Positions 23,437-42,397 of a stretch of 64,000 nucleotides of DNA are shown one piece after another. The notes below the pieces were generated by a model that was not told the origin of the DNA, did not search any database, and saw only the letters and a list, made by a program, of their open reading frames with translations. How positions within the stretch are numbered: position 1 is the first letter of the stretch; each line of letters opens with the position of its first letter. The stretch spans positions 1-64,000 of the forward strand of contig JAQWJE010000016.1 of NCBI GenBank assembly GCA_029248525.1. Reading direction: 5' to 3'. The DNA comes from Candidatus Binatia bacterium (lineage in GTDB: Bacteria > Desulfobacterota > Binatia > UBA12015). The position numbers and the translations under genes were made by a program.

Positions 23437-23456
23437 GGTGGTCTAGAAAGACCACC
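23437..23456. terminator. bidirectional hairpin between convergent genes
   Basis: GGTGGTCT (23437-23444) pairs perfectly with AGACCACC (23449-23456) around an AGAA loop. It begins 4 nt after the DUF4136 stop and contains the TAG stop (23443-23445) and last codons of the minus-strand TolC gene. As it is symmetric it could end transcription from both sides, though there is no strong U-run. Confidence 0.55.
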
Positions 23457-25206
23457 AGGGAAAGTCCGTCTCCCCGCGACCGGCGATCTCGACGTTATAA
23501 CGATCGAGGATCGTGCCTTGCGAGCGTTCGAAGCGCGCCAGCGAGTTGTTGTAGTCGATCACTGAGCGAATCTCGGCGAGCTTGGAAGCCGCAACGTCGT
23601 TCTGGAACTTGAGAAGGTCGGTGGTAGTGGCCATCCCGACATCGTAGCGTTTCATCTGGTTGCGCAGGTTTTCTTCGCTCAGCTCGCGAGCCAGACGCGT
23701 TGCCGACATCCGTTGGACATCGGACTGCACATCGCCGAAAGCCTGACTGACATCGAGAGCGACATCGGAGATCTGTTGGCGATAGCGCGCCGACATCTGC
23801 TCTCTCTGGATCCGTGCCTGACGGTAACCGGCTTCGGCGGCGGCATTCCCGATGGGCACCTCGATTCGCACCCCTGCGGTATAAGAGTAGTAGTCCCCGC
23901 CGACCATTCGATCGAGTGCTTTGCCATAGCTGCCGGCGAATTGGTCGTTGTAGGGCTGGCCAGTAAAGTCGTTGATGCCCGGACGGACGGTGCCGCCGAG
24001 ACCGTTGAGGCCACCGGCGCCATAGACGTCCAACCGAGGCAGAACCTGGTTCTTGTTCAGGGCGACCCGCAGGTCGCCACCCCGGACCGCAAGACGAGAA
24101 GCCTCTATTTCCGGTCGCTTTTGCATGGCGACCTCGATGGCGGCGCCGAGTTCGGGAAGTTCTCTGGGGGAATGGGTGGGGGCTTCCACCGGCTGGACGC
24201 GTCGGGGGAAGAATTCACTTTGGCCCGGCAGGTACACCATGTTTTGGAGATTACGTTTGGCGTGCTCGAGTATATTCGCTGCGACGATTACGTCTTCGTT
24301 GCGGCGTGCGGCCTCGGCTTCGCTTTCCTGAACCGCAACGGGCGGCAGGACGCCGACGTCCACCCGGGTTCGGTTGTCCCGGACGGTCTTGAGGGCCAAT
24401 TCAAAGGAGCCCTGCAGGACATCGAGGCTCTCTTCCTTGAGCACGACATCCCAATACGCGCGGATAACGATGGTGATGAAATTCGCGACATTGGTCCGGT
24501 AGCCCTCGACGGCTGCATCCGTCGACGTTTCGGCCAGCCGGATGCGCAAGGTTGAGAAATACAGGCCGAAGTCGCGCAGCAGCGGCTGGTTGATGGTCAA
24601 CGAGGCCTGCGGTGTCAGGGTTGGATTGAGATCGAAGAAGGTGTTGTCCGTGGTGAACTTTCGGTTGGTCCATTGGGCTTCGATAAAGGCGCCTGTGCGG
24701 ACCATCTTCCGCACCGAAAGATCCCAATTGGTAGAATACTGCTGGAGAACGTTCGCGCCCTGCAGAAGGCTCGATGAGGGCTCGGCCAATCGGCCGAAAT
24801 TTGCATCGCTTCCAAGGATCGGGTCGAATTGAGCAGTGGCTGCCAGAATCCCCTGCTCCTCGAAAAGCGGTTGAAGGGATTCGCTGAGCAGTCGGGGGTT
24901 GTGAGCCAAAGCTGTCGTGACCACCTCGCGTAGCGTCAGGCGCGCTGGTTGCAGCGGGTTGCCCGGAACGACCGGCAATCGCTGCTCGCGTGCGGGATAT
25001 TCCCACTGCGAGCTGAGCATGGCCCAGACCGACGGGTTCTCGATCAGCGCGGCCTTTTCGGCCGCGGTTGCCCCGGCAATCAGGCCGGATGCGGCGAGAG
25101 ATTGATTCTCGGACTCGGCGACTTCAGCAGCAGCAACTGGCGAAGCGAGCGCCAGAATTGCAAGAGCCGTTGCCCCTCGGACGAGACGTTTCCATCGAAG
25201 TTGCAT
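23443..25206 (-). CDS. TolC family outer-membrane channel protein
   Basis: About 587 residues from the ATG at 25206, with a signal peptide (ATALAILALASPVAAAE). After an N-terminal extension of about 85 residues, LTLREVVTTALAHNPRL opens the outer-membrane efflux domain; repeated helices (EAEAARRNEDVIVAANILEHAKRNLQ, QKRPEIEASRLAVRGGDLRVALNKNQVLPRLDVYG, GYRQARIQREQMSARYRQQ) are typical coiled-coil barrels. It should form a trimeric outer-membrane/periplasmic exit duct. No inner-membrane transporter gene is adjacent, so its partner is encoded elsewhere. It is divergent from serA. Confidence 0.88.
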   Translation of the reverse strand: MQLRWKRLVRGATALAILALASPVAAAEVAESENQSLAASGLIAGATAAEKAALIENPSVWAMLSSQWEYPAREQRLPVVPGNPLQPARLTLREVVTTALAHNPRLLSESLQPLFEEQGILAATAQFDPILGSDANFGRLAEPSSSLLQGANVLQQYSTNWDLSVRKMVRTGAFIEAQWTNRKFTTDNTFFDLNPTLTPQASLTINQPLLRDFGLYFSTLRIRLAETSTDAAVEGYRTNVANFITIVIRAYWDVVLKEESLDVLQGSFELALKTVRDNRTRVDVGVLPPVAVQESEAEAARRNEDVIVAANILEHAKRNLQNMVYLPGQSEFFPRRVQPVEAPTHSPRELPELGAAIEVAMQKRPEIEASRLAVRGGDLRVALNKNQVLPRLDVYGAGGLNGLGGTVRPGINDFTGQPYNDQFAGSYGKALDRMVGGDYYSYTAGVRIEVPIGNAAAEAGYRQARIQREQMSARYRQQISDVALDVSQAFGDVQSDVQRMSATRLARELSEENLRNQMKRYDVGMATTTDLLKFQNDVAASKLAEIRSVIDYNNSLARFERSQGTILDRYNVEIAGRGETDFPWWSF

Positions 25207-25391
25207 GGTAACCACACTTTTTCGGGTATCGGCGCCGGACGGGGATGTCAATTTCAGCGAAACGGCCGGCAGGTAGCGCGGGGCTCTGGGCGGCTCTGCC
25301 GGGCGATCTCTTGAACGCCTTTCGGGGTCTGTTAGCCAGTAGGGTGAGGAACCGATCGGCGTATTCCTTCGATTTCATCTACGGTTCCGAA

Positions 25392-28456: not shown

Positions 28457-29395
28457 ATGACTATGGCCGCCGCTGTCGTCACAGAGGAATTGCGTCGCAC
28501 CTACGACGGGCGCGAGGCCGTTCGGGGTATCTCCCTGACGATCCCCGAGGGGGAAATTTTTGGCCTTCTGGGTCCGAATGGAGCCGGAAAAACCACCACC
28601 CTTTCGATGATTTCGACCCGCATCCGGCCCACTTCCGGGGACGCATGGGTGTGCGGGAAGCACGTCGTAAAAGAGGTGCACCGCGCCCGCCGTTTTTTGA
28701 ACGTAGCCCCTCAGGAAGAGGCTCATTATCCCACGTTGACGGCGGAAGAGAACCTGCAGTTTTTTGCTCGGCTCTATGGCGTCCCGACAGCCAAGCGTGG
28801 GGCCCTGGTTGAGAAAGCGCTCGCGGTTGTCGAATTGCAGGGGCGCCGGCATGACCGCGTGGGCACGTTTTCGGGAGGGATGCGTCGCCGGCTGAATCTG
28901 GGTTGCGCGCTTGTCAGTGGGCCTCGTGTGGTTCTTTTGGACGAGCCAACTGTGGGCGTGGACCCTCAGTCGCGCGCTCATATTTTCGATGCTGTCCGCC
29001 GCTTGCGTGAGGAGGGACTCACGATCCTCTACACAACGCATTATCTCGCCGAGGCGGAGGAGCTTTGTGACCGCATTGGTGTGATTGACGAGGGGAAGAT
29101 TGTCGCTCTGGGTACGATTCCCGAGCTTTTGGCCGGCTCACGGACGCGCGAGGTCGTCGAGCTCCGTTTTCCGATGGGGATGACGTCACTTCCGATTGTC
29201 GAGAATCATCCCGAGGTCGAGAAGGTCGAATTTCACGGTCCTCTGGTGCGTATTTATGCTCGTCATGCGCAGCCGCTTCTTGCAACGGTCTGCGCTCCGG
29301 GCGCGCTGGCGGAAGAGCTTGTGCAGATCAAGGTCACACCTGTCTCTCTGGAAACCATTTTCATGGAAATTACCGGCAAGGAGCTGCGCGATTGA
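28457..29395 (+). CDS. ABC-2 type exporter, ATP-binding subunit
   Basis: 312 residues of the DrrA/CcmA-like class. Walker A is GPNGAGKTTT (about residues 39-48), the signature is FSGGM, Walker B is VVLLDEPTVGVDP, and the switch His is in TTHYL. A C-terminal extension of about 85 residues (ELRFPMGMTSLPIVENHP ... LETIFMEITGKELRD) is typical of ABC-2 export ATPases. It is the first gene of a tight five-gene operon: its TGA overlaps the TTG start of the MlaC-like gene. It would energise the permease encoded at 30021. An alternative ATG lies two codons downstream. Confidence 0.95.
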   Translation: MTMAAAVVTEELRRTYDGREAVRGISLTIPEGEIFGLLGPNGAGKTTTLSMISTRIRPTSGDAWVCGKHVVKEVHRARRFLNVAPQEEAHYPTLTAEENLQFFARLYGVPTAKRGALVEKALAVVELQGRRHDRVGTFSGGMRRRLNLGCALVSGPRVVLLDEPTVGVDPQSRAHIFDAVRRLREEGLTILYTTHYLAEAEELCDRIGVIDEGKIVALGTIPELLAGSRTREVVELRFPMGMTSLPIVENHPEVEKVEFHGPLVRIYARHAQPLLATVCAPGALAEELVQIKVTPVSLETIFMEITGKELRD

Positions 29396-30024
29396 TAGTT
29401 CGAGTCACGGAAATATTGCGCAAGATCAAGTTGGTTTGTTTGTTCGCATGCTTGACGGTTTCCCCGGTTTCGGCGGCCGAGACCTATTTGGTCGAAGGGC
29501 CAATGCGGCATACTCAGGAAATCTTGCAGAGTTCCAATACCATCGTCACCGGTCCCGGAGATCGCGATGCGAAATTGATCAAGCTGAAGGTTCTGCTGCG
29601 GGACTTTCTCGATACCGATGCGCTGGGCCGGAGATCGATGGGCAAGCACCTGGAAGGGGTGAGTCCCGAGCAGGAAGCCCGATTTCTTTCGCTATTTCGG
29701 GATCTTTTTGTTCGGACCTACGTCCAACGGCTGCTTCTTTTTGATGTGCCTGAATTTGCTTACGGCGACGAGCGAATCGTCGGCGATACCGCGGAAGTCG
29801 AAACAGAGATCGTCACCGACCGCGATCGCTTCGGCGTGGACTACGATCTGCGCAAAACAAAAGACGGCTGGGCCGCCACGGATATCCGGATCGAAGACGT
29901 CAGCCTCGGCGCAAACTTCCGATCCCAATTTGATCGCGCGCTCTCCAAGGATTCTCTCGACGGATTACTCGACCGTCTCGATCGTAAACTTCACGGAAAG
30001 AAGCCTCCCGCGCCCAGCCAATGA
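29392..30024 (+). CDS. Ttg2D/MlaC-like periplasmic (lipid-binding) protein
   Basis: 210 residues from a TTG start overlapping the preceding stop, with AAGGAG 8 nt upstream. A signal peptide (LVCLFACLTVSPVSAAE) is followed by IKLKVLLRDFLDTDALGRRSMGKHL, EARFLSLFRDLFVRTYVQRLL, AEVETEIVTDRDRFGVDYDLRKTKDGWAATDIRIEDVSLGANFRSQF, matching the MlaC/Ttg2D fold, a pocket that holds phospholipid acyl chains. MlaC normally partners with MlaFEDB and an MCE ring; here the partners are an ABC-2 permease and a TolC channel and there is no MCE protein. A role as soluble carrier of the exported lipid-like substrate is my inference. Confidence 0.82.
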   Translation: MIVRVTEILRKIKLVCLFACLTVSPVSAAETYLVEGPMRHTQEILQSSNTIVTGPGDRDAKLIKLKVLLRDFLDTDALGRRSMGKHLEGVSPEQEARFLSLFRDLFVRTYVQRLLLFDVPEFAYGDERIVGDTAEVETEIVTDRDRFGVDYDLRKTKDGWAATDIRIEDVSLGANFRSQFDRALSKDSLDGLLDRLDRKLHGKKPPAPSQ

Positions 30025-31121
30025 TTGCGGTCTTCTGGAAAGACCTTCGCCTGATCCTGCGGGATCCCTGGGCGCTCGGTTTCGCACTTCTGGTGCCGAT
30101 TTTCGTGATCACGGTTATCGCTGCCGCCCTGTTTTCCAGCGGCGATGATACACCACGCATAACGATTCCGATCGTGGATGAAGACAGAGGGCCTGTGGCC
30201 GGAGCGTTCCGGAAACTCCTCGGCGAGCATGCGATTGTCGAGGTCATGGATCGCGAGCGCGCCGAGAATATGGTCGCGGTGCAAAACCGTGCGCCGGCAG
30301 CGCTGGTGTTCCCCCCCGGTCTGAGTCGGCGCTATCTTCAGGGGCGACCGAGCGTGGTGGAACTGCTCACGGACCCCGCGGAACCCGAAGGAGTGCAGGC
30401 GGTCAAGGTACTGCTTCTGCTGATGGACAAGGAAGCGGCAGCTCTCGCCGATCCCCTGACCGACGATATGATGGTGATCGAGGAACGTAACCTCACGGGA
30501 AACCGCACGGCGATCTCCGATTTCGAGGCGAACGTGCCCGGCTTCACGATCATGTTCACGCTTCTGGCGATCATTTTTGGTGTGTCGATGGGGCTGCATG
30601 AGGAACGGGAATGGGGGACTCTGCCCAGATTGCTGGTAGCCCCCGCAGGCTTCACCTGGATTCTATGCGGGAAATTAGGTGCGCGTTTTGTGCTCGGGTT
30701 TGGGCAATTGGTCCTGCTTCTGCTTTGGGCCCATTTTCTCTTTGATGTGTCTCTGGGCCCGTCCGTGAGCGGTTTTCTCCTGCTTTCGGCAATGATCGTC
30801 CTTGGCTGCGTCACGCTGGGGTTGGTGGTGGGCGGGATCGCCCGGACCCGGGAGCAGGCACAATCGCTGGGCTTGGCCGCGATGATGATCTGGTCGGGGA
30901 TGGGTGGCCTTTTCTGGCCGCCGGATATGATGCCGAATGGGCTGCGACTGGCTGCCGAGGGGTTTTTTACCACTTGGGCTATGCGGGGGATGAATGATCT
31001 CGTGCTAAGAGATCAGGGGTTGGCGGGTATCGCAGACACGCTAGGTGTCCTTTTTATATTCGGAGTCGGGACTCTTCTGATCGGTCTCTGGATTTTCAGG
31101 GTACGCCATAGCGCGCGTTAG
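30021..31121 (+). CDS. ABC-2 type exporter, permease subunit
   Basis: 366 residues. An N-terminal helix (WALGFALLVPIFVITVIAAALF) is followed by a periplasmic domain of about 140 residues, then five hydrophobic segments (from FTIMFTLLAIIFGVSMGLHEE on) with the ABC-2 family motif EEREWGTLPRLLVAPAGFTWILCGKLGA. This is the YhhJ/DrrB-like architecture, in which the large loop docks with periplasmic partners. The start overlaps the MlaC-like stop (ATGA) and the TolC gene follows 9 nt after its stop, so the complex likely spans both membranes. The substrate is unknown. Confidence 0.93.
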   Translation: MIAVFWKDLRLILRDPWALGFALLVPIFVITVIAAALFSSGDDTPRITIPIVDEDRGPVAGAFRKLLGEHAIVEVMDRERAENMVAVQNRAPAALVFPPGLSRRYLQGRPSVVELLTDPAEPEGVQAVKVLLLLMDKEAAALADPLTDDMMVIEERNLTGNRTAISDFEANVPGFTIMFTLLAIIFGVSMGLHEEREWGTLPRLLVAPAGFTWILCGKLGARFVLGFGQLVLLLLWAHFLFDVSLGPSVSGFLLLSAMIVLGCVTLGLVVGGIARTREQAQSLGLAAMMIWSGMGGLFWPPDMMPNGLRLAAEGFFTTWAMRGMNDLVLRDQGLAGIADTLGVLFIFGVGTLLIGLWIFRVRHSAR

Positions 31122-31130
31122 GACGACGAG

Positions 31131-32597
31131 TTGGGCGAACACGGAATGTTTTCGAAAGGCGACAGGCAGCGAGCACTTGGAGCGGCGATGGCCGTGGTCC
31201 TCTGCCTTGTCTCGGTCACGTTGGCCTCGGCCGCACCGATCGATACCGAAGCCCGCGACGTCCGTCTCGAGAAGCGTTCCTTGCCTACATGGATTCGAGG
31301 TGCTCTGGCTGCTGCGCCGGAGATGGTCGTGGCGCGGAGCGAGGTGACCATTCGCGAGAGAGGTCTGGGGACGGCTCAGGCGGCGCGATTTCTCCCCGAG
31401 TTTCATGCCTTGAGCTTGTCGGGGGTCAGCAAGCGGGCCCGCGGCACTGTGAATGCGCCATTGGATACCGTCGATACCAATGCGTACGGACCGTTTACCC
31501 AAGTCGAGGTTCAATTCGTTCAGCCTTTGTTTACCTGGGGGAAAATCACCTCCAATATCGAGGCCGCTGCGCGAGCGGTGGACGCACAGATGGCGGCCGG
31601 CGAGCGCACCGGGAACGCGATTGTCGAGCAAACCAAGGAACTTTACTTCAACATCCTTCTTGCGCGGACCCTAGGGGGGATCGTGGCCGAGACCGCGAAG
31701 GGGTTTGATGACGCCCTCGAGACGGCACGCGAGCGCCGTGAGGACGGGGATGCGGATATTACGGAACTCGATATTCTCTACTTGCGCGTCGGGCGCGCAG
31801 AGATCAAGAAGCAAATCCCACGACTGGAAGTGAGCGAGCGCATCGCCCTGGAGGCGCTGCGAATTCTTGCCGGGGAACCCCGTCGGGATCCACTCGATGT
31901 CGGCGAGCGCTTTCTCGATCCAGTGCCGGCGAAGGTTCGGGAGTTGGCTTATTACGAGGAGCAACTCTTCTCGCAAAGTCCGCAGTGGAAGCAGCTGCAG
32001 TTTGGCATTGAAGCCAAGTCCAGCCAGCGAGATGCCCTGGAGGCTGACTACTACCCAAGCTTCTTCCTCAGCGGGACGTTTGCCTACAGCTATGCCCCCA
32101 AGCGGAAGCGACAGCTGAACCCCTTCGCCTGGGACCAATTCAACTATTTGCGGGGGCCCGGTGGTGTGCTCGGGATTCGTTGGCCGCTCAATTTCCATCT
32201 TACCGAGGCTCGTGTCTCGGCGGCGCAGGCCGAAGTGGAAAAGCTGCATGCGGAGAGTCGCCGCGCCCGCTCGGGGCTGGAACTGGAGCTTCAGGAGGCC
32301 TACGACGGAGTGACGCAGGCTCGCGAGTCGCTGGAGGTCCTCGAGGACGGGCGGAAGGCAGGGCGCGCCATCCTGACCTTGTCGGTGACGAACTTCGATA
32401 TCGGTATTGGGGACGCCTCCGAGATCCTGCAGGCTTTGGGGAATTACGCTCGTGTTTCCTCAAGCTACTACGACAGCGTTCGCCAATACGATATGGCTTT
32501 GGCCAAGCTGACGCGGGTCACCGGCGAAGAAGTGATGGTGCTCGAAGGAATTCTGCCCGGCTACCGTTGGGTTGCCGAAGGAAGTCGTCGCGAGTGA
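31131..32597 (+). CDS. TolC family outer-membrane channel protein of the ABC-2 operon
   Basis: 488 residues from a TTG (AGGA 7 nt upstream; ATG at 31146 is the alternative). It has a signal peptide (AMAVVLCLVSVTLASAAP). The body has TolC-type helices: MVVARSEVTIRERGLGTAQAARFLPEF, VQPLFTWGKITSNIEAAARAVDAQ, YFNILLARTLGGIVAETAKGFDDALETARERREDGDA, and VSAAQAEVEKLHAESRRARSGLELELQEAYDGVTQARE. QPLFTWGK is the usual first transmembrane strand. Placed after the ABC-2 permease, it should give the exporter an outer-membrane exit. Its TGA overlaps the GTG of the next gene. Confidence 0.9.
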   Translation: MGEHGMFSKGDRQRALGAAMAVVLCLVSVTLASAAPIDTEARDVRLEKRSLPTWIRGALAAAPEMVVARSEVTIRERGLGTAQAARFLPEFHALSLSGVSKRARGTVNAPLDTVDTNAYGPFTQVEVQFVQPLFTWGKITSNIEAAARAVDAQMAAGERTGNAIVEQTKELYFNILLARTLGGIVAETAKGFDDALETARERREDGDADITELDILYLRVGRAEIKKQIPRLEVSERIALEALRILAGEPRRDPLDVGERFLDPVPAKVRELAYYEEQLFSQSPQWKQLQFGIEAKSSQRDALEADYYPSFFLSGTFAYSYAPKRKRQLNPFAWDQFNYLRGPGGVLGIRWPLNFHLTEARVSAAQAEVEKLHAESRRARSGLELELQEAYDGVTQARESLEVLEDGRKAGRAILTLSVTNFDIGIGDASEILQALGNYARVSSSYYDSVRQYDMALAKLTRVTGEEVMVLEGILPGYRWVAEGSRRE

Positions 32598-33433
32598 CGG
32601 TGGACTCGCCGGCGGGCGCGGTGATTGTCCCGGCCTACCTGCGCCAACCGGAGGACGTTGCGATTCTGGCAGGAACGCTCGGCGACCTTCCGGGATCCGT
32701 ACGCCGGTGCATTGTGGTGGCTCAGGCCGGGCCGGAAGGCTTGCCTCCATTGCTGGATTTGCCCTCGGATCAGCGTTTGCGCGTGGTGCGCCTGCCGGCG
32801 GGAGTCGGGAAATGGCCGGCTTTCGCAGAGGGTCTGGCGCATCTCGACGGTGACGAGAGCTGGGTGGCCGTACTGGATGCCGATGGCGCATTCCCCGGAC
32901 ATTGTCTGGAGAGTCTCGCGGCTCGGATGGTCTCCGGGCCGTTCTCTCATGTCATCGGTACACGGCCACCTGACGCGATCGACCTTCGGGCACCCGGGAC
33001 CGATGGGTCGCGTTTGCGCATTCATCTGGAAGCTTTTTCCAATACCTTGGCGTTGCTCACGCTGGAGCGCAGCACCGATCCGGCGTTTCGGAATGCAGAC
33101 CTCCAATGCGGGCTTCATTTGTTCGAGGCGGGTCGTCTGCGCGGCCTGGAACCTGCTTCCTGGCCGTTTTACGGCGGGGAGTTGCAGCTCTTTCACGATT
33201 CCCTGCAGGCCGGTTATACGGTTGGTTTCGCACCGATCGACGTTGCGGAAAACCCGGTTTCGACCTACCCCCTCGAGGCCATTGTCGACGGCCTTTTTCA
33301 GCTGCCTTTTCTGGCGACCGCGGATGCGAGCTTGCGTGAGCGCGCGCTTGCGGAGACCCCGATCTTGTATCCGGACTGGCCGCTCGATCCGGCCATGCTC
33401 GTTGCGGATCTCGAGCCGCTCCTGTCCCGTTAG
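32594..33433 (+). CDS. glycosyltransferase-like (GT-A fold) protein, last gene of the export operon
   Basis: About 279 residues from a GTG that overlaps the TolC stop (GTGA). AVIVPAYLRQPEDVAILAGTL resembles the opening strand of family-2 glycosyltransferases, GVGKWPAFAEGLAHL the nucleotide-binding helix, and WVAVLDADGAFPG the DxD metal motif. Later parts (NADLQCGLHLFEAGRLRGL, PFYGGELQLFHDSLQAGYTVGFAPIDV) also suit the fold. There are no membrane helices. Coupling to the exporter suggests it builds or modifies the exported substrate, perhaps a glycolipid. The family call is moderate because overall similarity is weak. Confidence 0.68.
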   Translation: MTVDSPAGAVIVPAYLRQPEDVAILAGTLGDLPGSVRRCIVVAQAGPEGLPPLLDLPSDQRLRVVRLPAGVGKWPAFAEGLAHLDGDESWVAVLDADGAFPGHCLESLAARMVSGPFSHVIGTRPPDAIDLRAPGTDGSRLRIHLEAFSNTLALLTLERSTDPAFRNADLQCGLHLFEAGRLRGLEPASWPFYGGELQLFHDSLQAGYTVGFAPIDVAENPVSTYPLEAIVDGLFQLPFLATADASLRERALAETPILYPDWPLDPAMLVADLEPLLSR

Positions 33434-34481: not shown

Positions 34482-34835
34482 TCAGCGGGTTTTTCGGTAG
34501 GTAGGGTCGGGCGGCATCAGGCGCTTCTGCTTGCCGCGTCCTGCATAGATGGGCTTGGCTTTCTCGTAATAATAGCGCCCGCGACGATTGTAGGCTTTGC
34601 CGCCGCGGGGTTTTGCCGTGGGGTCGGGGACTGTGGCGCGGAGTGTCGCCGGTTGCTTCAGCCGAGGGTCGGGGATCGGCGGCCGCCGCATGATGCGACC
34701 ACGTTCCTTTTGCGTTCGCTTGACCCGAAGGTTCTTGGGGTCGCCCACGCGGCCGCCAGCGGCTGTGCTCACAACGGGGGCGAGAAGAAAGGCCAGCGAG
34801 ATTGCCAAAGCTGTGAATTTTTTAAAAGAGATCAT
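34482..34835 (-). CDS. small secreted basic protein, unknown function
   Basis: 117 residues with a clear signal peptide (FTALAISLAFLLAPVVSTAAGG). The mature part is strongly basic and rich in Arg, Lys, Pro and Tyr (KRTQKERGRIMRRPP, AYNRRGRYYYEKAK), suggesting an unfolded or nucleic-acid/polyanion-binding surface protein. Its ATG overlaps the stop of the giant beta-helix gene (ATGA), so it is translated with it and may assist or decorate it. I recognise no family. Confidence 0.7.
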   Translation of the reverse strand: MISFKKFTALAISLAFLLAPVVSTAAGGRVGDPKNLRVKRTQKERGRIMRRPPIPDPRLKQPATLRATVPDPTAKPRGGKAYNRRGRYYYEKAKPIYAGRGKQKRLMPPDPTYRKTR

Positions 34836-37800
34836 TGGTGTACTCCGAGATCTGCGATGCCCGTATCGGGGGCTCCATGCTTTGCCTGCGTCGAGCTCTG
34901 GTCGACACCAAGTGCGGAAGCCTCATCTGATCCTTTATCGATCGCTGGGCTTCCAAGCGATAGCGAAAGATCATCATCGGCCCAACCGATCCCGCCCGCG
35001 ATGCCGTCGGGGCCCTCCGGGTCGCGATAGAGTGGGTCCGAATTCGTCAGTATATCCGGGGAAGATGCGGCACTTTGGGGGTAAATATCCATCCGATTAT
35101 TGCCTAGAAGAAGGTGGTGCAATGAGGACGCTTCGCCCGCGCGTGCCCTCATATGGACGCCCCAGCCCGCGTGCCCGGTCACGATCGAATCGCGAAATTC
35201 CAGATCCGGGCTCCGCCGCAAGGAGATGCCGGTTCGGCCAGCGCCCTGAATCGTTACGAATTCGATCAGACCCGAGCTTCTGGACATTCCGATGCCGCCA
35301 CGCAAGCAGGCCGTCACCTGCACATTTCGAATCAGAACCTCGGTGGCTCGAACTCCATAAATTCCGGTGCGACGACAACCGCTTAATGTCACCGAGTCGA
35401 TCGTTACGCCGGGGTTTCCGCGCAGAGTGATTCCGTCACTGCGGACGTTGGTGATGCTGAGATCCTGCAAATGAATATTTTCGGCTTGCCGATAGAGGCT
35501 GATGCCGCGCCGCCCGCCATCGATCGCCAGGTTCCGGATCTCTACCCGGGCTGCTCGGACCCGGATCGCATCGCGTCTGGAATCGGGCTTGAGTGTCGTC
35601 GAGCCCAGAGAGTCACTGCCGAGAACGGTGACGTCCGATACCCGGATATCCATGGCCTCATTCCAAACGCCGGCACCGATGATCAGAGTATCTCCGGGCA
35701 CCAATTGGCGCAGCGCGTGCCGTATCGTAGCCCACGGCGTTGAGGCATTCGCCGCCTCGATGCGGGTATATTCGTCATTGCCGATAGTGGCATCGACATG
35801 GAGCAGCGCCGATGTGCTGGCGTCTCGCCATTGAATGGCCGCGAGAGAACGCGCGCCGTTTGCATAATGATAACCGAGGTCCGCCATGCCGAGGTCTGGT
35901 GTGCCCGAAGCCGCGGTGGTTCCGGTAAGCCCGAGAAGGAGCGCCTGATCAGAGCCGGCATCCACGGCCAGACTTTGGATGGTCTGCCCGGATCCGATCT
36001 GACTCAGCCGGAAATCGTCATCGCGCCAGGCTGCGCCGCCCAGAGTACCATCGACGCCAGCGGGGCTCAGGAAGTGCGGGTTGACCCAGATATTTCCCGT
36101 ACAGCTTTGGCAGAAAAGAGCCTCGTCAGGCGAGATGGCCAGAGCCGGATCGGACGGGTTCCAGAACCCATTATGCTGAAGGACGACGTCCGAGTTTTCA
36201 ATCTTGAGACCGATACCGATCGCGTCCGTGATGAGGTTGTCCCGGATGGTCCCGGCAGAGTTTTCCAGGCGAAGATTACCAACCGCGTTGTTTGTGATGG
36301 TGTTGGCAGCCACGAGGTTATTCTCGGAGATCGGCGGCACATCGTCATCGCTGGCACTGCTATTGTCCAGAGAGATCCCCCACTCGCCGTTTCCGTATAC
36401 GAGATTGTTTTCCAGTTCGATCCCGGCCGAACGACGAAGTTTGATGCCGGCATAAAGGTTGCTGGCGGCGATTGTATTTTCGATGCGGATACCCTCGGAC
36501 TCGAAAATACGAATGCCGTCGCCATTTGACTCGAGAACGATGCAATTTCGGATCCGTAATCCGGTGGATCCGGTCAGAGCGGAGATCCCGGTCGAGGCGC
36601 CGCGGATCCGCAGTCCGTCGAGAGTGATATCTTCGGCCTCAATCGTGAAGCCCGTGGTCGGTTCCAGTGCTCCTGTTTCGGTATCTTTCTGCGGTAGCGG
36701 TTCCAGGACAATGCTATCGGGTGTTTCGGCCTTGATCGTAATTCCATTTCGCTTGATCTGGACGGACTCCCGATAGACGCCCGGCAGGAGAATAATCGTA
36801 TCGCCTTCTTCGGCCCGGCTGACCGCGTAGAGCAGGGTGGCCCATGGGGTCATGGGGTTGCGTGCGGTGGCCGAGGTGCGCGGTTCGTCTTCGGTCCCGT
36901 CCGATCCGAATTGAGAGCTTACAAAAAAGGTTCCGCGCAAGCTGGCGGGATCGAAGGCGGCGCTGCTCGGAACCGCGATCGCCAGGCTGGCATCTGCATG
37001 GAATCCCGGATCAGCGACGCCAACATCGGGTGCGCGATCAATGCTTGTTGATCCATCGATGCCGGCCGTGATCGTTTCCGCCGATCCGCGGTCGATGACA
37101 AGACTGTTTCTGCTTTGGCCGGCGCCGATATTTGAGAGGAAAAAGCTGTCGTCCAACCATCCGGAACCGCCGAGATGTGCATCCGGGCCGGCTGGATCGA
37201 CGTATTTGGGGCTGTGCCCGATATAATCCCAGAAAAAGATATTCTCGGAATCGTTTTCGCGATCGCGGTCGCGTTGGTTGAAAGCGAAGGCATTATGATG
37301 CGCGAAGATCTCCTCGCCTTTGAGGTAGAGCCCCAGATCCTGTTGATTCGAAATGATATTATCGCGGACTTCAGCGCTCGCACCTACAATGCGAATTCCA
37401 TCGTTGTTGGCATGTACCGTATTGAAAGCGAGAAGGTTGTCGGTCGAATTGGGAAGCGTCGGCTTGGACTCGGATCCTGTTTCGTTGTCGACCGAGATGG
37501 CCCAGCCGCCATTGGTATAGATCCGATTGTTTCGAACAAATAGTTTGTCGCTGCGCAGCAGGAGCAGGCCTGTCTGGCCTGCATTGGTGACGACGGAGGA
37601 GTCGACCCAGACGTCACTGCTGTCCTCGACCTTGATGCCGGTCGTCTCGGCATTGACGGAAGCTACCTGGCGAATCCTCAATCCGGTGGTGTTTACGGCC
37701 TTGAGCGACTGCGCGCCTCCCTCGATGGTGAGGTTCTCGATCGCGACGTGATCATGGCCTTCGATGCTGATGCCCAGTTCGCCGCTTGGGGGAAGCAGTC

Positions 37801-40800
37801 GCGTGGCCCCCGGGGTCGTGCTGCCAAAAAGACGGATGCCGGCGCTCTGGATGCTGATGTTCTCGCTATAATCGCCCGGGGCAATTTCGAGGCTGTCGCC
37901 GGGGGCAAGTTGGCGAACTGCGTAACGGATTGTTCGCCAGGCTGTTTCGGAATGGATCGCGTCGCCGCTCGGGTTGGAATTGTCGCCGTCAGGCGCCACC
38001 TTGAATACGGCACCCGTCCCCGTGATTGCACTGAAGGCAACAGTCGTGGCTGGCTGTGCTTGTGTGCTGGTGGCATCTCGGTGGTAGCCCAGATCCGCCC
38101 GCCCCAAATCGAGGTTGCCATCGCGGGTGACGCTTCCCGAGATATCGGCCTCGACGCTGTCGGCGCGCGCCGATCCGCTGTCGAGGAGCGCGCTGTTTCG
38201 GGCGTCGCCGGCCGCGATGGAGAGAAGTCGATAATCGCGAGCGAGGCTGTCGACGAAATCGGGTTCTCGGGAGAGGTTCGACCAGCGTCGCGCTTCCTGT
38301 CCGGATGCTTCGTCGAAGAGCGAGTTTGGACCGAATATATTATTATGGTGGACATCGACAGGCGCGGTGTCGGTCTTGATGCCCGCGCCCCCGGCACCCA
38401 CGACAATATTATCGCGGACGCGGCCGGTGGCGTTGGCCAGTCGAATCCCGCCCTTGACGAATTGAGCCACCGTATTGAAGGCTACCAGCGTGCCATGCAC
38501 GACTGCGGCCCCCTGAGCGGTATCCACCTGAATGGCCCAGTCGCCTGATGCCGTGACGAGGTTATTGCGTATATAGAGACTCGGGCTGTCGGTGCCGTAG
38601 ATGCCGCGGGAGGCAGCACCATGAACCTTGTTGCTGTCCACGATTCCTTCGCTGCTGCGGGTGATCTTGATGCCCGTATTCGTAGGTTCGACGATTTCAT
38701 TCGATCGAATCTGAAGACGCTCCGCCCGGTCGGCGCGAATCCCGTACCGCGCGTTCTCGATCCGGAAGCCCTCGATCGTGATATCATCATGCTCGACCAG
38801 GAATCCATTTTCGCCCCCCGCCATGATGGTCACCTGAGGGTCGGCGAGGAGGGTCACACCTTCGTTCGATGTCTCCACGGCTTCGTTGTAGGTCCCGGCG
38901 CTTACCCGGACAGTATCGCCGCTGCGAGCACTATTGGAGCGCAGCGCTTGCCCGATCGTTTTCCAGGGACTTGCCGGGTCCATCGCCTCGAGGACATGTC
39001 GCTCGTCGTCGCCGGTTGCGGCATTGACGAAAAAGCCACGCACGAGATTCGACGGAGCATCGCCTGGAACGGCGATCGTCGTACTGCCCGTGGCGTTCGC
39101 GTGGTAGCCAAGGTCCGCGATGGCCTGATCGATTACGCCATCGACGCGCGTGGTGCCCGAGATATAGGCCTCGCTGGTGGTGCCGGAGCCGGCATCGATG
39201 GCGGGGCTTTGCGCGGTATCGCCGGCGGCCAATTGTTGCAGGCGGAAATCTCCAGCGTCGCTATCCCGGAAGAGTGGGTCTTGGGAGAGGTTGGCCCACC
39301 CCACGGGCTCCGCATCCGAGGACGTATCGTACCCTCTGGGGTTCGCGAACACCAAATTATGGTGGAGAAGAAGCGGTAGTGTGTTTGTCTTGATGCCTCG
39401 TCCTGAATTCGATGTGACGATATTATTGCGTATCTCGCCGGTAGCGTTCTGGAAAGCAATGCCGCCATGCGCCGTCGTTGTGCCGTTGCCATGCACGGTA
39501 TTGGACGAAACCAGATTTGCGACGTTGGTGAAGGCAGCGATCTCGCTGCGAACGCGTATGCCCCATTCCCCACAATCGGTGACGAGGTTGTTATGAACCC
39601 AGTTTCTGCCGCCGCCCACTGTGCCATTGATTTCGCTGGTCTGCACCGCGATGCCGTCGAGTTTTGCTTGCCGAACGATGGACCCTTCAACGATTGAATC
39701 ATAGGTGTCCCGGAGCACGATGGCCTTGCCCGAAATTTTCTCGCTTCCGATGGGAGCCTCGACGAGCAGCGATTGCAGGTGGACGCGATAGATCGAGCGG
39801 TCGCTGTCTTCGGGCGCAACGCGAACTCCTTCCAACGAAGCGCGCACCGTGAGTCCAACAACATGAACATCGTCAGCTTCGACTCGAATGCCGATCGCTC
39901 CCGGCGGGGCGTCAATGACACCAGCGCCCGGGGTCGCGCTTTGCAGAGTGACGCCCGCGGTCTCTATCTCGACAGCTTCCTCGCAAGAACCACCGACAAG
40001 CGAAATCGTATCTCCGGGGACGGCCTGTCCCAGCGCCTTGCCGATTGTCGCCCAACCATCCCAGGCACGCCCGGCTTCCCACCGACTGCGCTGATCGTCT
40101 CCAAAGCGGCAGTCTACAAAATAATGCTGGTCGATCGGCAGGGGAATGGCACTGATATCGTCGCCGAATATGCCACTATTCTGGTGAAAACCCGGGTCGG
40201 CCATCTCCTGATCCGGAAGGCCGTCCCGTCGCGTGGAGCCGCTGATGTCGGCGGTCCCGATCGGGGCGCTGCCCCGGTCGAGCAATAGGCTGTCCTGAGA
40301 ATCGCCCGCTGCGATCTGTTGGAGTCGGAAATCACCCGCGAGACTGTCGACAAAACCAGGGTTCAGGCTGCGATTGCTGACCCATAGGTCGAAACCGCTG
40401 GGCATAATATAATTGTTCTGTCCGGTGGTGCCGTTGTTCCAGGAGTTGTTGTGGTGGACGAGGCTGCCGGCGCCCGGGTCCGAGACGCGGAGACCACTGA
40501 GGCTTTGGTCGGCAATGATATTGTCGCGAATCTCGCCCTCGGCGTTGTTCAGGCGAATCCCTTGGCGGTTGCCGACGACTGTATTGAAAACGATCAGATT
40601 CCCGCTGGACAGTGGCGGCGGAAACGCGGTCGAGTTGGGGTCGTTCTCAAAGTCGATTGCCCATGAGGCCTGATCGTCAAGGCTGCCGCCGGTAATCAGA
40701 TTGTTGCGAACGGTAGCGTGGCTGGTCAGCCTGAGCTGGATTCCGCGCCCCCCGGCACCCACGATCTGGTTGTTTTCGAGAATGATCCCCTGCCCATGAC

Positions 40801-42397
40801 GAACGGTGATGGCATCGAATTGGAGGCCGGCGTCCGGACGTCCTTCGATTTGAAGATTCCGCAGAGTGATCCCGGTGAGAGTCTCGTCGTCTTTTGTGGG
40901 GGCGGCCAGAATGCCCCGGTGATCGCTGAGGATGCGCAGGCCATCGAGCGTAATGCCGCTGTTCTGGATCAGAAACGCATTGGTGCCGGAGGGGCCTATG
41001 ACCGTCACCGAACCCGCGACGTGAGCCTGCACGGTGATATCGTCACGGTCAATCTGGATTTCTTCGGTTGGCGAGCAGGTGCCCTCCTGTACGGTGACGA
41101 TGTTCCGTGGGCCGGCTCCGAGCACGCCGCGGCGAATAGACCGCCACGGAGTCGCCGGATTCCGAGCAGTAGCTGCATTACGCGCATCATCTCCGTCGCT
41201 GCAGTTGACGAAATATTCCAGACCCACTCCGGGCGTGGGGGCGGGCGTGGGGGCGGGCGTGGGCGCCGGGGTGGCTGCGGCGGGCGGTACTCCTGTCGAG
41301 GCGGACGCCTCGACGTGCCGGCCGAGGTCGGCCAGGCCTGTATCAGGCGCGAGGTCGGTCCGGATCGAACCGTTGATATCGGCCACCGAAACCTCCGCGT
41401 CACCCGCATCGATGGCCGGGCTGTTTGCGGCGACACGATAATCTCCGTTCCCGGCAAACAGCGGGTCCGCCTCGATCAGATTCCAGATCAGAGGCTCCTG
41501 GTCGGTATCGAAATCGATGGTCAGAGATTGTGCCCAGATCAGGTTGTGGTGAATGAAGGTCGGCGCGGTATCGACTTTGATCGCACGACCGGCATTGCTG
41601 GCGAGAATATTGTTGCGGATCTCGCCGGTCGCGTTCTCGAATCGCAACCCACCATGCGTGGCGAGGACACCGTTTTGTATGACGGTGTTGAAGGATGCGA
41701 GATGGTTGGTTCCGGGGGGGAAGATCTCCGAGTCTCCGCCATCCACCTCGATGCCCCATTCCTGATTCTCGGTGACGAGATTGTTGCGCACGTAGGAGGG
41801 TGCACTTCGTTCGATCAAGATTCCCCGAGAGCCATTATTGTGGGCCTCGGTGTTTTCGACGCGCACATTCTGCGAGTTGGTGATGTGAATTCCGTTTTTG
41901 GCGGCATCGCGAATGATGCAATTGCGGATGATCAGTCCGTTGGCGGTGTCGGCTCGCAAGCCATGGCGACCACCACGAATCTCGAGGCCGTCCAGCGTGA
42001 AATCTTCATGTTCCACATAAAGGCCCGCGCTGTCCGCGGGGGCTTCGAGAATGGCCCCGGATGCACCTTGCAAGGTGATGCCGGCATAGGCTGATTCCAG
42101 CGATTCGAGATACAAGCCTGCAGCGACGTGGATGGTATGCGGCCCGCCGCTGTTTTGCACCGAGCGCAGGGCATGCCCTATGGTGGCCCACGGTTGCTCA
42201 GGGTTCTGCGCCTGCAGCGCTGTGAAGCTGTCTGATCCGGTTGCGCGATCGACATGGAAATCCAAAGCCAGCACCGTTGCCGGCATTTGCAGGCCGAGGA
42301 CCATCCCCACCAGGATCGCGATCCGCTGCAGGGGCTTTCGGCACGAAGGCCTGTCATCGGGGCTTTGCCCTGCCTGTATTTGCTCCAAATTAAACAC
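34832..42397 (-). CDS. giant secreted right-handed parallel beta-helix protein with seven modules
   Basis: 2521 residues from a GTG start, with an N-region of about 24 residues and then a signal peptide (IAILVGMVLGLQMPATVLA). Seven modules of about 325-376 residues begin near residues 46, 391, 755, 1118, 1461, 1820 and 2196. Each opens with a strand plus G-x-D/N and PWxTIxxAL (for example FFVNAATGDDER, SPWKTIGQALRS), then parallel beta-helix coils such as GIRLANATGRVRDNIV and VRNNLVT, and closes with a SGSTxxDGxxDxGxADLGYH-type stretch. A Pro/Ala/Thr linker joins modules 1 and 2. The fold recalls polysaccharide lyases, NosD and DUF1565 proteins, so binding or cleavage of polysaccharide, or an adhesive fibre, is possible. 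No anchor motif ends the chain. Confidence 0.85.
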   Translation of the reverse strand: MFNLEQIQAGQSPDDRPSCRKPLQRIAILVGMVLGLQMPATVLALDFHVDRATGSDSFTALQAQNPEQPWATIGHALRSVQNSGGPHTIHVAAGLYLESLESAYAGITLQGASGAILEAPADSAGLYVEHEDFTLDGLEIRGGRHGLRADTANGLIIRNCIIRDAAKNGIHITNSQNVRVENTEAHNNGSRGILIERSAPSYVRNNLVTENQEWGIEVDGGDSEIFPPGTNHLASFNTVIQNGVLATHGGLRFENATGEIRNNILASNAGRAIKVDTAPTFIHHNLIWAQSLTIDFDTDQEPLIWNLIEADPLFAGNGDYRVAANSPAIDAGDAEVSVADINGSIRTDLAPDTGLADLGRHVEASASTGVPPAAATPAPTPAPTPAPTPGVGLEYFVNCSDGDDARNAATARNPATPWRSIRRGVLGAGPRNIVTVQEGTCSPTEEIQIDRDDITVQAHVAGSVTVIGPSGTNAFLIQNSGITLDGLRILSDHRGILAAPTKDDETLTGITLRNLQIEGRPDAGLQFDAITVRHGQGIILENNQIVGAGGRGIQLRLTSHATVRNNLITGGSLDDQASWAIDFENDPNSTAFPPPLSSGNLIVFNTVVGNRQGIRLNNAEGEIRDNIIADQSLSGLRVSDPGAGSLVHHNNSWNNGTTGQNNYIMPSGFDLWVSNRSLNPGFVDSLAGDFRLQQIAAGDSQDSLLLDRGSAPIGTADISGSTRRDGLPDQEMADPGFHQNSGIFGDDISAIPLPIDQHYFVDCRFGDDQRSRWEAGRAWDGWATIGKALGQAVPGDTISLVGGSCEEAVEIETAGVTLQSATPGAGVIDAPPGAIGIRVEADDVHVVGLTVRASLEGVRVAPEDSDRSIYRVHLQSLLVEAPIGSEKISGKAIVLRDTYDSIVEGSIVRQAKLDGIAVQTSEINGTVGGGRNWVHNNLVTDCGEWGIRVRSEIAAFTNVANLVSSNTVHGNGTTTAHGGIAFQNATGEIRNNIVTSNSGRGIKTNTLPLLLHHNLVFANPRGYDTSSDAEPVGWANLSQDPLFRDSDAGDFRLQQLAAGDTAQSPAIDAGSGTTSEAYISGTTRVDGVIDQAIADLGYHANATGSTTIAVPGDAPSNLVRGFFVNAATGDDERHVLEAMDPASPWKTIGQALRSNSARSGDTVRVSAGTYNEAVETSNEGVTLLADPQVTIMAGGENGFLVEHDDITIEGFRIENARYGIRADRAERLQIRSNEIVEPTNTGIKITRSSEGIVDSNKVHGAASRGIYGTDSPSLYIRNNLVTASGDWAIQVDTAQGAAVVHGTLVAFNTVAQFVKGGIRLANATGRVRDNIVVGAGGAGIKTDTAPVDVHHNNIFGPNSLFDEASGQEARRWSNLSREPDFVDSLARDYRLLSIAAGDARNSALLDSGSARADSVEADISGSVTRDGNLDLGRADLGYHRDATSTQAQPATTVAFSAITGTGAVFKVAPDGDNSNPSGDAIHSETAWRTIRYAVRQLAPGDSLEIAPGDYSENISIQSAGIRLFGSTTPGATRLLPPSGELGISIEGHDHVAIENLTIEGGAQSLKAVNTTGLRIRQVASVNAETTGIKVEDSSDVWVDSSVVTNAGQTGLLLLRSDKLFVRNNRIYTNGGWAISVDNETGSESKPTLPNSTDNLLAFNTVHANNDGIRIVGASAEVRDNIISNQQDLGLYLKGEEIFAHHNAFAFNQRDRDRENDSENIFFWDYIGHSPKYVDPAGPDAHLGGSGWLDDSFFLSNIGAGQSRNSLVIDRGSAETITAGIDGSTSIDRAPDVGVADPGFHADASLAIAVPSSAAFDPASLRGTFFVSSQFGSDGTEDEPRTSATARNPMTPWATLLYAVSRAEEGDTIILLPGVYRESVQIKRNGITIKAETPDSIVLEPLPQKDTETGALEPTTGFTIEAEDITLDGLRIRGASTGISALTGSTGLRIRNCIVLESNGDGIRIFESEGIRIENTIAASNLYAGIKLRRSAGIELENNLVYGNGEWGISLDNSSASDDDVPPISENNLVAANTITNNAVGNLRLENSAGTIRDNLITDAIGIGLKIENSDVVLQHNGFWNPSDPALAISPDEALFCQSCTGNIWVNPHFLSPAGVDGTLGGAAWRDDDFRLSQIGSGQTIQSLAVDAGSDQALLLGLTGTTAASGTPDLGMADLGYHYANGARSLAAIQWRDASTSALLHVDATIGNDEYTRIEAANASTPWATIRHALRQLVPGDTLIIGAGVWNEAMDIRVSDVTVLGSDSLGSTTLKPDSRRDAIRVRAARVEIRNLAIDGGRRGISLYRQAENIHLQDLSITNVRSDGITLRGNPGVTIDSVTLSGCRRTGIYGVRATEVLIRNVQVTACLRGGIGMSRSSGLIEFVTIQGAGRTGISLRRSPDLEFRDSIVTGHAGWGVHMRARAGEASSLHHLLLGNNRMDIYPQSAASSPDILTNSDPLYRDPEGPDGIAGGIGWADDDLSLSLGSPAIDKGSDEASALGVDQSSTQAKHGAPDTGIADLGVHQ
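41231..41266. repeat. three tandem 12-nt units encoding a Pro-rich linker
   Basis: GGGCGTGGGGGC is repeated twice exactly and once with one change. On the coding (minus) strand each unit encodes Ala-Pro-Thr-Pro. The unit-length repeat is prone to slippage, so linker length may vary between strains. Confidence 0.85.

Follow-up and report, generated by a model that had tools for sequence, protein, structure and literature searches.

A five-gene locus in the genome of an uncultured member of the class Binatia probably encodes an MCE-free, ABC-2-powered lipid exporter of the Mla type that stands beside the classical Mla system. We put the probability of this reading at roughly 0.6, and we infer both the substrate and the direction of transport. 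Comparison across the class shows, at the level of gene content and order, that a conserved triad (ATPase, MlaC-family carrier and ABC-2 permease), accompanied by a single outer-membrane partner (MlaA or a dedicated TolC), coexists with MlaE-type systems. The carrier is of a type that ordinarily serves a different class of transporter, and some relatives add genes that look capable of producing a sulfate-bearing lipid; together these features point to a lipid route to the surface of uncultured Binatia that has so far gone unrecognised.

Organisation of the five-gene locus

The window, the whole stretch of 64,000 nucleotides of contig C16 that was analysed, carries the five genes on the plus strand at positions 28457–33433. 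Three of them form the core: an ABC-2 type ATPase (28457..29395; PF00005, ABC_tran, 109 bits), an MlaC-family periplasmic carrier (29392..30024; TTG start; PF05494, 113 bits against a cut-off of 26) and an ABC-2 permease with an N-terminal periplasmic domain (30021..31121; PF12698, ABC2_membrane_3, 106 bits). The fourth gene, the dedicated partner in the window's family, encodes a TolC-type outer membrane channel (OEP; 31131..32597; TTG start; PF02321, 128 bits), and the fifth, a species-specific addition, encodes a GT2-like protein (32594..33433; GTG start; PF00535, Glycos_transf_2, 46 bits against a cut-off of 23.3). All five proteins score above their Pfam cut-offs. The successive junctions measure -4, -4, +9 and -4 nt, in agreement with the earlier note on this DNA, which had described them as overlapping or shorter than 10 nt. 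The ATPase and the permease are thus one gene apart within one operon, and this part is contiguous in relatives. Flanking the operon are genes that we take to be serA- and purA-like upstream and fabI-like downstream, the last on the opposite strand.

The best NCBIfam model for the ATPase is DrrA (280 bits, under its cut-off of 312), and stretches of its translation that we take to be the Walker A, signature and Walker B motifs are legible by eye. The N-terminus of the MlaC-like protein reads, by eye, like a signal peptide. In a profile comparison, the permease hits 3cni (5e-6), which is a putative ABC type-2 transporter domain, and the model of the permease (pLDDT 58) is too poor to judge its fold. 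In a contig search that returned permeases of close relatives only (5 loci), the permease is 100% identical to a copy on contig DLYX01000120.1 (isolate UBA12015) and has a 61% relative in another Candidatus Binatia.

The absence of MCE and MlaE proteins from the locus, as originally claimed, is borne out in three ways. No MCE protein is found by Pfam among the five genes; the MCE matches of the genome lie on contigs C38, C39, C50 and C52, none of them on C16; and tblastn with the genome's own MlaE as query detects no MlaE in the 64-kb window, nor in 32 stretches around the triads of relatives. In addition, Pfam finds neither an adaptor of the HlyD/MacA-type family nor an MMPL pump among the five operon proteins.

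Two other features of the surroundings are recorded here. A second OEP/TolC-family gene (23443–25251, minus strand; PF02321, 120 bits) lies a few kb upstream, and its position is kept in relatives (L036–L038). Adjoining the operon's downstream neighbour is a gene (34832–42397, minus strand) for a 2521-aa protein built from multiple stretches of right-handed beta-helix (PF13229, 339 bits, NosD-like).

A conserved triad across six families

A profile of 17 operon-type MlaC sequences, which come from 17 of the 31 genomes later found to hold the triad, was run on 148 Binatia genomes. Operon-type MlaC proteins are present in 31 of these at 212 to 325 bits, separated by a sharp gap from the next matches (at most 138 bits), and the 31 genomes span six families (f1, f11, f13, f15, f8 and f9). 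The ATPase lies directly upstream of MlaC in every one of the 31 (30/30 returned loci plus G476), and 30 have the permease as the next gene downstream (29/30 returned loci plus G476). In the remaining genome, G486, the locus runs into a contig edge, and another of its contigs has a triad-group permease at its edge. The permease profile, built like the MlaC profile from members of the group it finds, recovers the same 31 genomes at triad level, with G004 and G486 as partial matches; among the 148 genomes, the triad-level permease family never occurs without a triad-type MlaC. Spacings within the triads of relatives range mostly from slight overlaps to 65 nt.

As a control, 12 loci of other Binatia MlaC genes (L022–L033) were inspected over 2.4–3.6 kb: the triad permease is found at none of them, and one has a weak ATPase match (28% identity). 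In the MlaC tree, the 28 triad sequences form one clade (support 100/98), and the nearest sequence outside this carrier clade, the MlaC of G018, is weakly placed (86/58) on a long branch. Because the order of the triad is conserved across relatives, a chance arrangement is excluded. The earlier note had named the loss of MlaC from this position in relatives as grounds for rejecting its proposal; the gene is found in the same position there.

Beyond the class, a phylum search with the permease profile matched at least nine of 395 genomes at 1e-40, with the best five candidates scored in many of the genomes. Among the candidates scored, only the window genome (G000) and G019 reach triad level, and the other matches give at most 218 bits, save the window genome's own permease paralog. 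In a plasmid collection, the permease matched eight records at 22–27% identity and MlaC matched two at ~30%; in the neighbourhood on an Azoarcus plasmid, the sole annotated one of three examined, no ABC transporter gene is listed apart from MlaC.

The GT2-like gene has a different distribution. It occurs in 2 of the 148 genomes, both of the same species, and was rejected as a component of the system; from this distribution, it is a recent, local addition at the species level. Since the GT gene is unconserved, the conserved unit comprises the three core genes and TolC. A search for the five families in this order had been proposed at the outset, and it keeps the ATPase-MlaC-permease order and gives up the five-gene set. 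The claim that all five genes make one system therefore stands for the triad with TolC and is not supported for the GT gene.

TolC or MlaA as the outer-membrane partner

We searched 39 selected genomes, 31 with the triad and eight without it, at E <=1e-25 with a profile built from eight TolC sequences of the window's family. Every one of the 24 triad genomes from f1, f11, f13 and f15 has the TolC subfamily in single copy; it is matched in none of the seven triad genomes of f8 and f9, and in one of the eight non-triad genomes tested (G018). In 22 of the 24, TolC lies on the same contig as the triad or as a triad permease or ATPase that borders a contig edge; in the remaining two, G001 and G482, it is found near a contig end. 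The orientation varies: TolC lies downstream on the same strand in f1, is divergent in f11, f13 and f15, and lies upstream on the same strand in G056. The earlier view that TolC belongs with the ABC-2 and MlaC genes thus holds in four families.

In f8 and f9, MlaA adjoins the triad in five of seven genomes, as identified by Pfam in three (178–203 bits) and by BLAST in two (42–56% identity). Neither MlaA nor TolC was found beside the triad of G476 in the stretches examined, and the triad locus of G453 is cut on one side by a contig end. There is no case, in the stretches examined, of TolC and MlaA both beside one triad, and on a concatenated tree the TolC/MlaA state requires two changes. The MlaA genes of the window genome lie only on C50 and C38, none beside the window triad.

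In G018, a TolC gene of this subfamily is oriented divergently to an MlaC gene (L214, 7782–9846), with no adjoining ABC-2 pump, near what is presumably an lptB-rpoN-hpf-like cluster. This arrangement hints that the pairing of TolC with MlaC may be the older state.

Three MlaC genes and the fold of the carrier

MlaE is present in 146 of the 148 class genomes, including all 31 triad genomes, and we rejected on this ground the idea that the triad replaces classical Mla. The window genome has a classical Mla operon on C50 (ATPase, MlaE, MCE, MlaA and MlaC). A second set, on C38 (L057, 8077–12487), consists of neighbouring genes for MlaC, MlaA (encoded on the opposite strand) and a pump of the MMPL family and has no MCE. 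The three MlaC genes of the genome, on C50, C38 and C16, therefore go with three motors, MlaE/MCE, MMPL and ABC-2, respectively. The concern that an MCE/MlaE operon elsewhere might be the true user of the window's MlaC loses its force, as the C50 operon has its own MlaC and MlaA.

An AlphaFold2 model of the carrier, made from five sequences, has a mean pLDDT of 80. By VIA-align, it superimposes on MlaC/Ttg2D structures with Z scores of 16 to 21 over 168–170 residues (rmsd 2.1 to 3.5, 18–23% identity), several of them titled as phospholipid-bound, and on the MlaC chains of the OmpC-MlaA-MlaC and MlaC-MlaD complexes with a Z score of 13. From this fold match, the carrier is predicted to bind phospholipid. 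Its best NCBIfam model is HpnM, at 58.3 bits against a cut-off of 160.1. The earlier proposal of a lipid-type periplasmic carrier within an ABC-2 operon free of MCE and MlaE is sustained by the contiguity of the genes and the absence of MlaE.

A permease paralog, a sulfotransferase and lipid enzymes

In G056, seven genes form one run with overlaps of 1 to 4 nt, in the order CDP-alcohol phosphatidyltransferase, HpnL-like membrane protein, Sulfotransfer_3, TolC, ATPase, MlaC and permease. In G038, sulfotransferase and HpnL-like genes lie ~1 kb from an MlaA-ATPase-MlaC-permease set, and in G019 the lipid enzymes are clustered but far from the triad. The HpnL-like protein beside the sulfotransferase scores 309 and 338 bits, over the HpnL cut-off of 196. 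For the phosphatidyltransferase, the NCBIfam matches, archaetidylinositol and phosphatidylinositol phosphate synthases, reach no more than 53 bits where the cut-offs are 170–180, too weak for the head group to be named.

A paralog of the permease (437–487 bits) is present in 12 of 14 genomes of the window's family, and in all 12 the sulfotransferase lies beside it. The phosphatidyltransferase, HpnL-like protein, sulfotransferase and paralog occur all together in 7 of the 12, and several of the others are cut by contig ends. In the window genome, the corresponding locus on C52 (L115, 5323–8719) holds the HpnL-like and Sulfotransfer_3 genes along with another permease, which shares 47% identity with that of the window, and no phosphatidyltransferase within the 9.9 kb examined. 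No ATPase match was found beside the paralog in the stretches examined, so the paralog may share the ATPase of the triad.

Orthologs of the sulfotransferase were found in 15 of the 148 genomes (665–748 bits; the next match is at 542), 13 of which have the triad (Fisher p = 1e-8, shared ancestry ignored). Outside the window's family, all three sulfotransferase genomes have the triad (Fisher p = 0.0025, shared ancestry likewise ignored). Of the 31 genomes with the triad, 18 lack the ortholog; G006 and G010 carry the sulfotransferase and the permease paralog but neither the triad nor the dedicated TolC.

Proposed mechanism and alternatives

In the proposed mechanism, the ATPase and the ABC-2 permease would extract a lipid from the inner membrane; the paralog that has no adjoining ATPase may be the permease's partner in the window's family. 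The MlaC-like protein would hold the acyl chains in its pocket and ferry the lipid across the periplasm, where TolC or MlaA would take it over for delivery to the outer leaflet or the outside of the cell. The cargo, more speculatively, could be a sulfated phospholipid where the CDP-alcohol phosphatidyltransferase, the HpnL-like protein and the sulfotransferase occur. Outward transport is what the family of the pump would imply, ABC-2 pumps being a class generally held to be exporters. We know of no TolC that conducts lipids of such a kind.

Among the alternatives, a clearance or solvent-tolerance pump is unlikely, although it has the most to recommend it. Here the MlaC-like protein would pick up a toxic amphiphile or a misplaced lipid in the periplasm or at the outer membrane and pass it to the ABC-2 pump from the periplasmic side for expulsion through TolC. 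TolC is the usual exit for small-molecule pumps and is dedicated in the 24 genomes above, MlaC relatives are also called toluene-tolerance proteins, and the best model for the ATPase is that of a drug exporter. Such a pump would be expected to have a HlyD/MacA-type adaptor, which the five genes lack, and both the replacement of TolC by MlaA in f8 and f9 and the lipid-enzyme operon of G056 point instead to lipid trafficking.

The lipid enzymes also bear on an ABC-2 counterpart of HpnM/HpnN that transports hopanoids. The HpnM model is the best for the carrier, and the membrane protein beside the sulfotransferase passes the HpnL cut-off; however, the carrier stays far below the HpnM cut-off, the G056 operon encodes a phospholipid enzyme, and the C38 MlaC-MlaA-MMPL set, which we take to resemble the HpnM/HpnN arrangement, is a separate locus. 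We regard hopanoid transport as very improbable, marginally more so than the idea of a spare carrier, in which MlaC serves MCE systems elsewhere and is merely co-transcribed with an unrelated ABC-2/TolC exporter. The genome does have four MCE loci, three of which (L116, L117 and L118) have no MlaC nearby by BLAST in the stretches examined, and its MlaC genes are dispersed over three contigs. A spare carrier, itself improbable, is difficult to reconcile with the contiguous triad in 31 genomes of six families, with a triad-level permease that always has its MlaC, with the C50 system's own MlaC, and with the presence of MlaE in 146 genomes as against triad MlaC in 31.

If the lipid-exporter reading is extended, the triad would represent a third motor for MlaC-type carriers, after MlaE/MCE and RND/MMPL: an ABC-2 pump driving an Mla-like pathway forwards. 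Its cargo would be a lipid dedicated to the surface, sulfated phospholipid in certain lineages, which would be placed in the outer leaflet or delivered to the exterior, and TolC and MlaA would be exits able to stand in for each other. We offer this wider proposal tentatively, at somewhat less than even odds.

Relation to known systems

Like the Mla pathway of Escherichia coli (MlaFEDB, MlaC and MlaA-OmpC), the triad has an MlaC-fold carrier and an ABC ATPase, and in f8 and f9 it has MlaA beside it. Unlike that pathway, the window has an ABC-2 permease in place of MlaE, TolC in place of MlaA and no MCE protein (MlaD) at the locus, and the triad coexists with classical MlaE systems. HpnM/HpnN-type sets share the combination of an MlaC relative with a non-MCE motor, an RND/MMPL pump, whereas the motor of the triad is ABC-2 and its carrier falls below the HpnM cut-off. 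ABC-2 exporters that work with TolC include those of the YbhFSR-, RbbA/YhhJ-, DrrAB- and NodIJ-like types. The window shares with them the ATPase and ABC2_membrane_3 permease families and a TolC-type channel, but MlaC occupies the place where an HlyD/MFP adaptor is expected; compared with a tripartite ABC-adaptor-TolC efflux pump, the operon has the channel and lacks the adaptor.

Veillonella parvula and other Negativicutes are described as having an MlaEFD-TolC-TamB operon, with MlaE, a bridge-forming MlaD and neither MlaC nor MlaA (PMC10665443). That operon, as described there, also has a TolC gene adjoining lipid-transport genes (PMC10665443). The window differs in having MlaC and an ABC-2 pump and no MCE protein at the locus. 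The recently described Mpc of Brucella abortus, a chimeric Mla-Pqi system, likewise departs from the classical Mla layout; it consists of Mla- and Pqi-like parts, and its abstract mentions no ABC-2 motor (PMC12436622). In the open-access literature, searched mostly at the level of titles and abstracts, we found no description of a system of MlaC with an ABC-2 pump, with or without TolC, and nothing on a sulfotransferase together with HpnL. In the main text of the Binatota genome paper, the terms sulfotransferase, hopanoid, TolC, transporter and outer membrane have zero occurrences (PMC8262859).

The direction of phospholipid transport by Mla is debated, and a review calls lipid delivery to the outer membrane a black box (PMC10212509). 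According to the same review, hypothetical forward transport via MlaA would deliver lipids to the outer leaflet, a result that the review considers to make no sense for ordinary phospholipids (PMC10212509). With a lipid meant for the surface, such delivery would be just what is wanted. The combination of MlaC with an ABC-2 pump and MlaA or TolC would make the direction testable with a motor of expected polarity and, if our reading is true, the Mla carrier would be a module that combines with different motors and outer-membrane exits. In addition, the link to the sulfotransferase names a lipid class to seek. Sulfotransferase matches at E <1e-60 number eight in the window genome (4.3 Mb) and at least 12 in G487, and sulfation, as judged from such gene counts, seems expanded in parts of the Binatia class.
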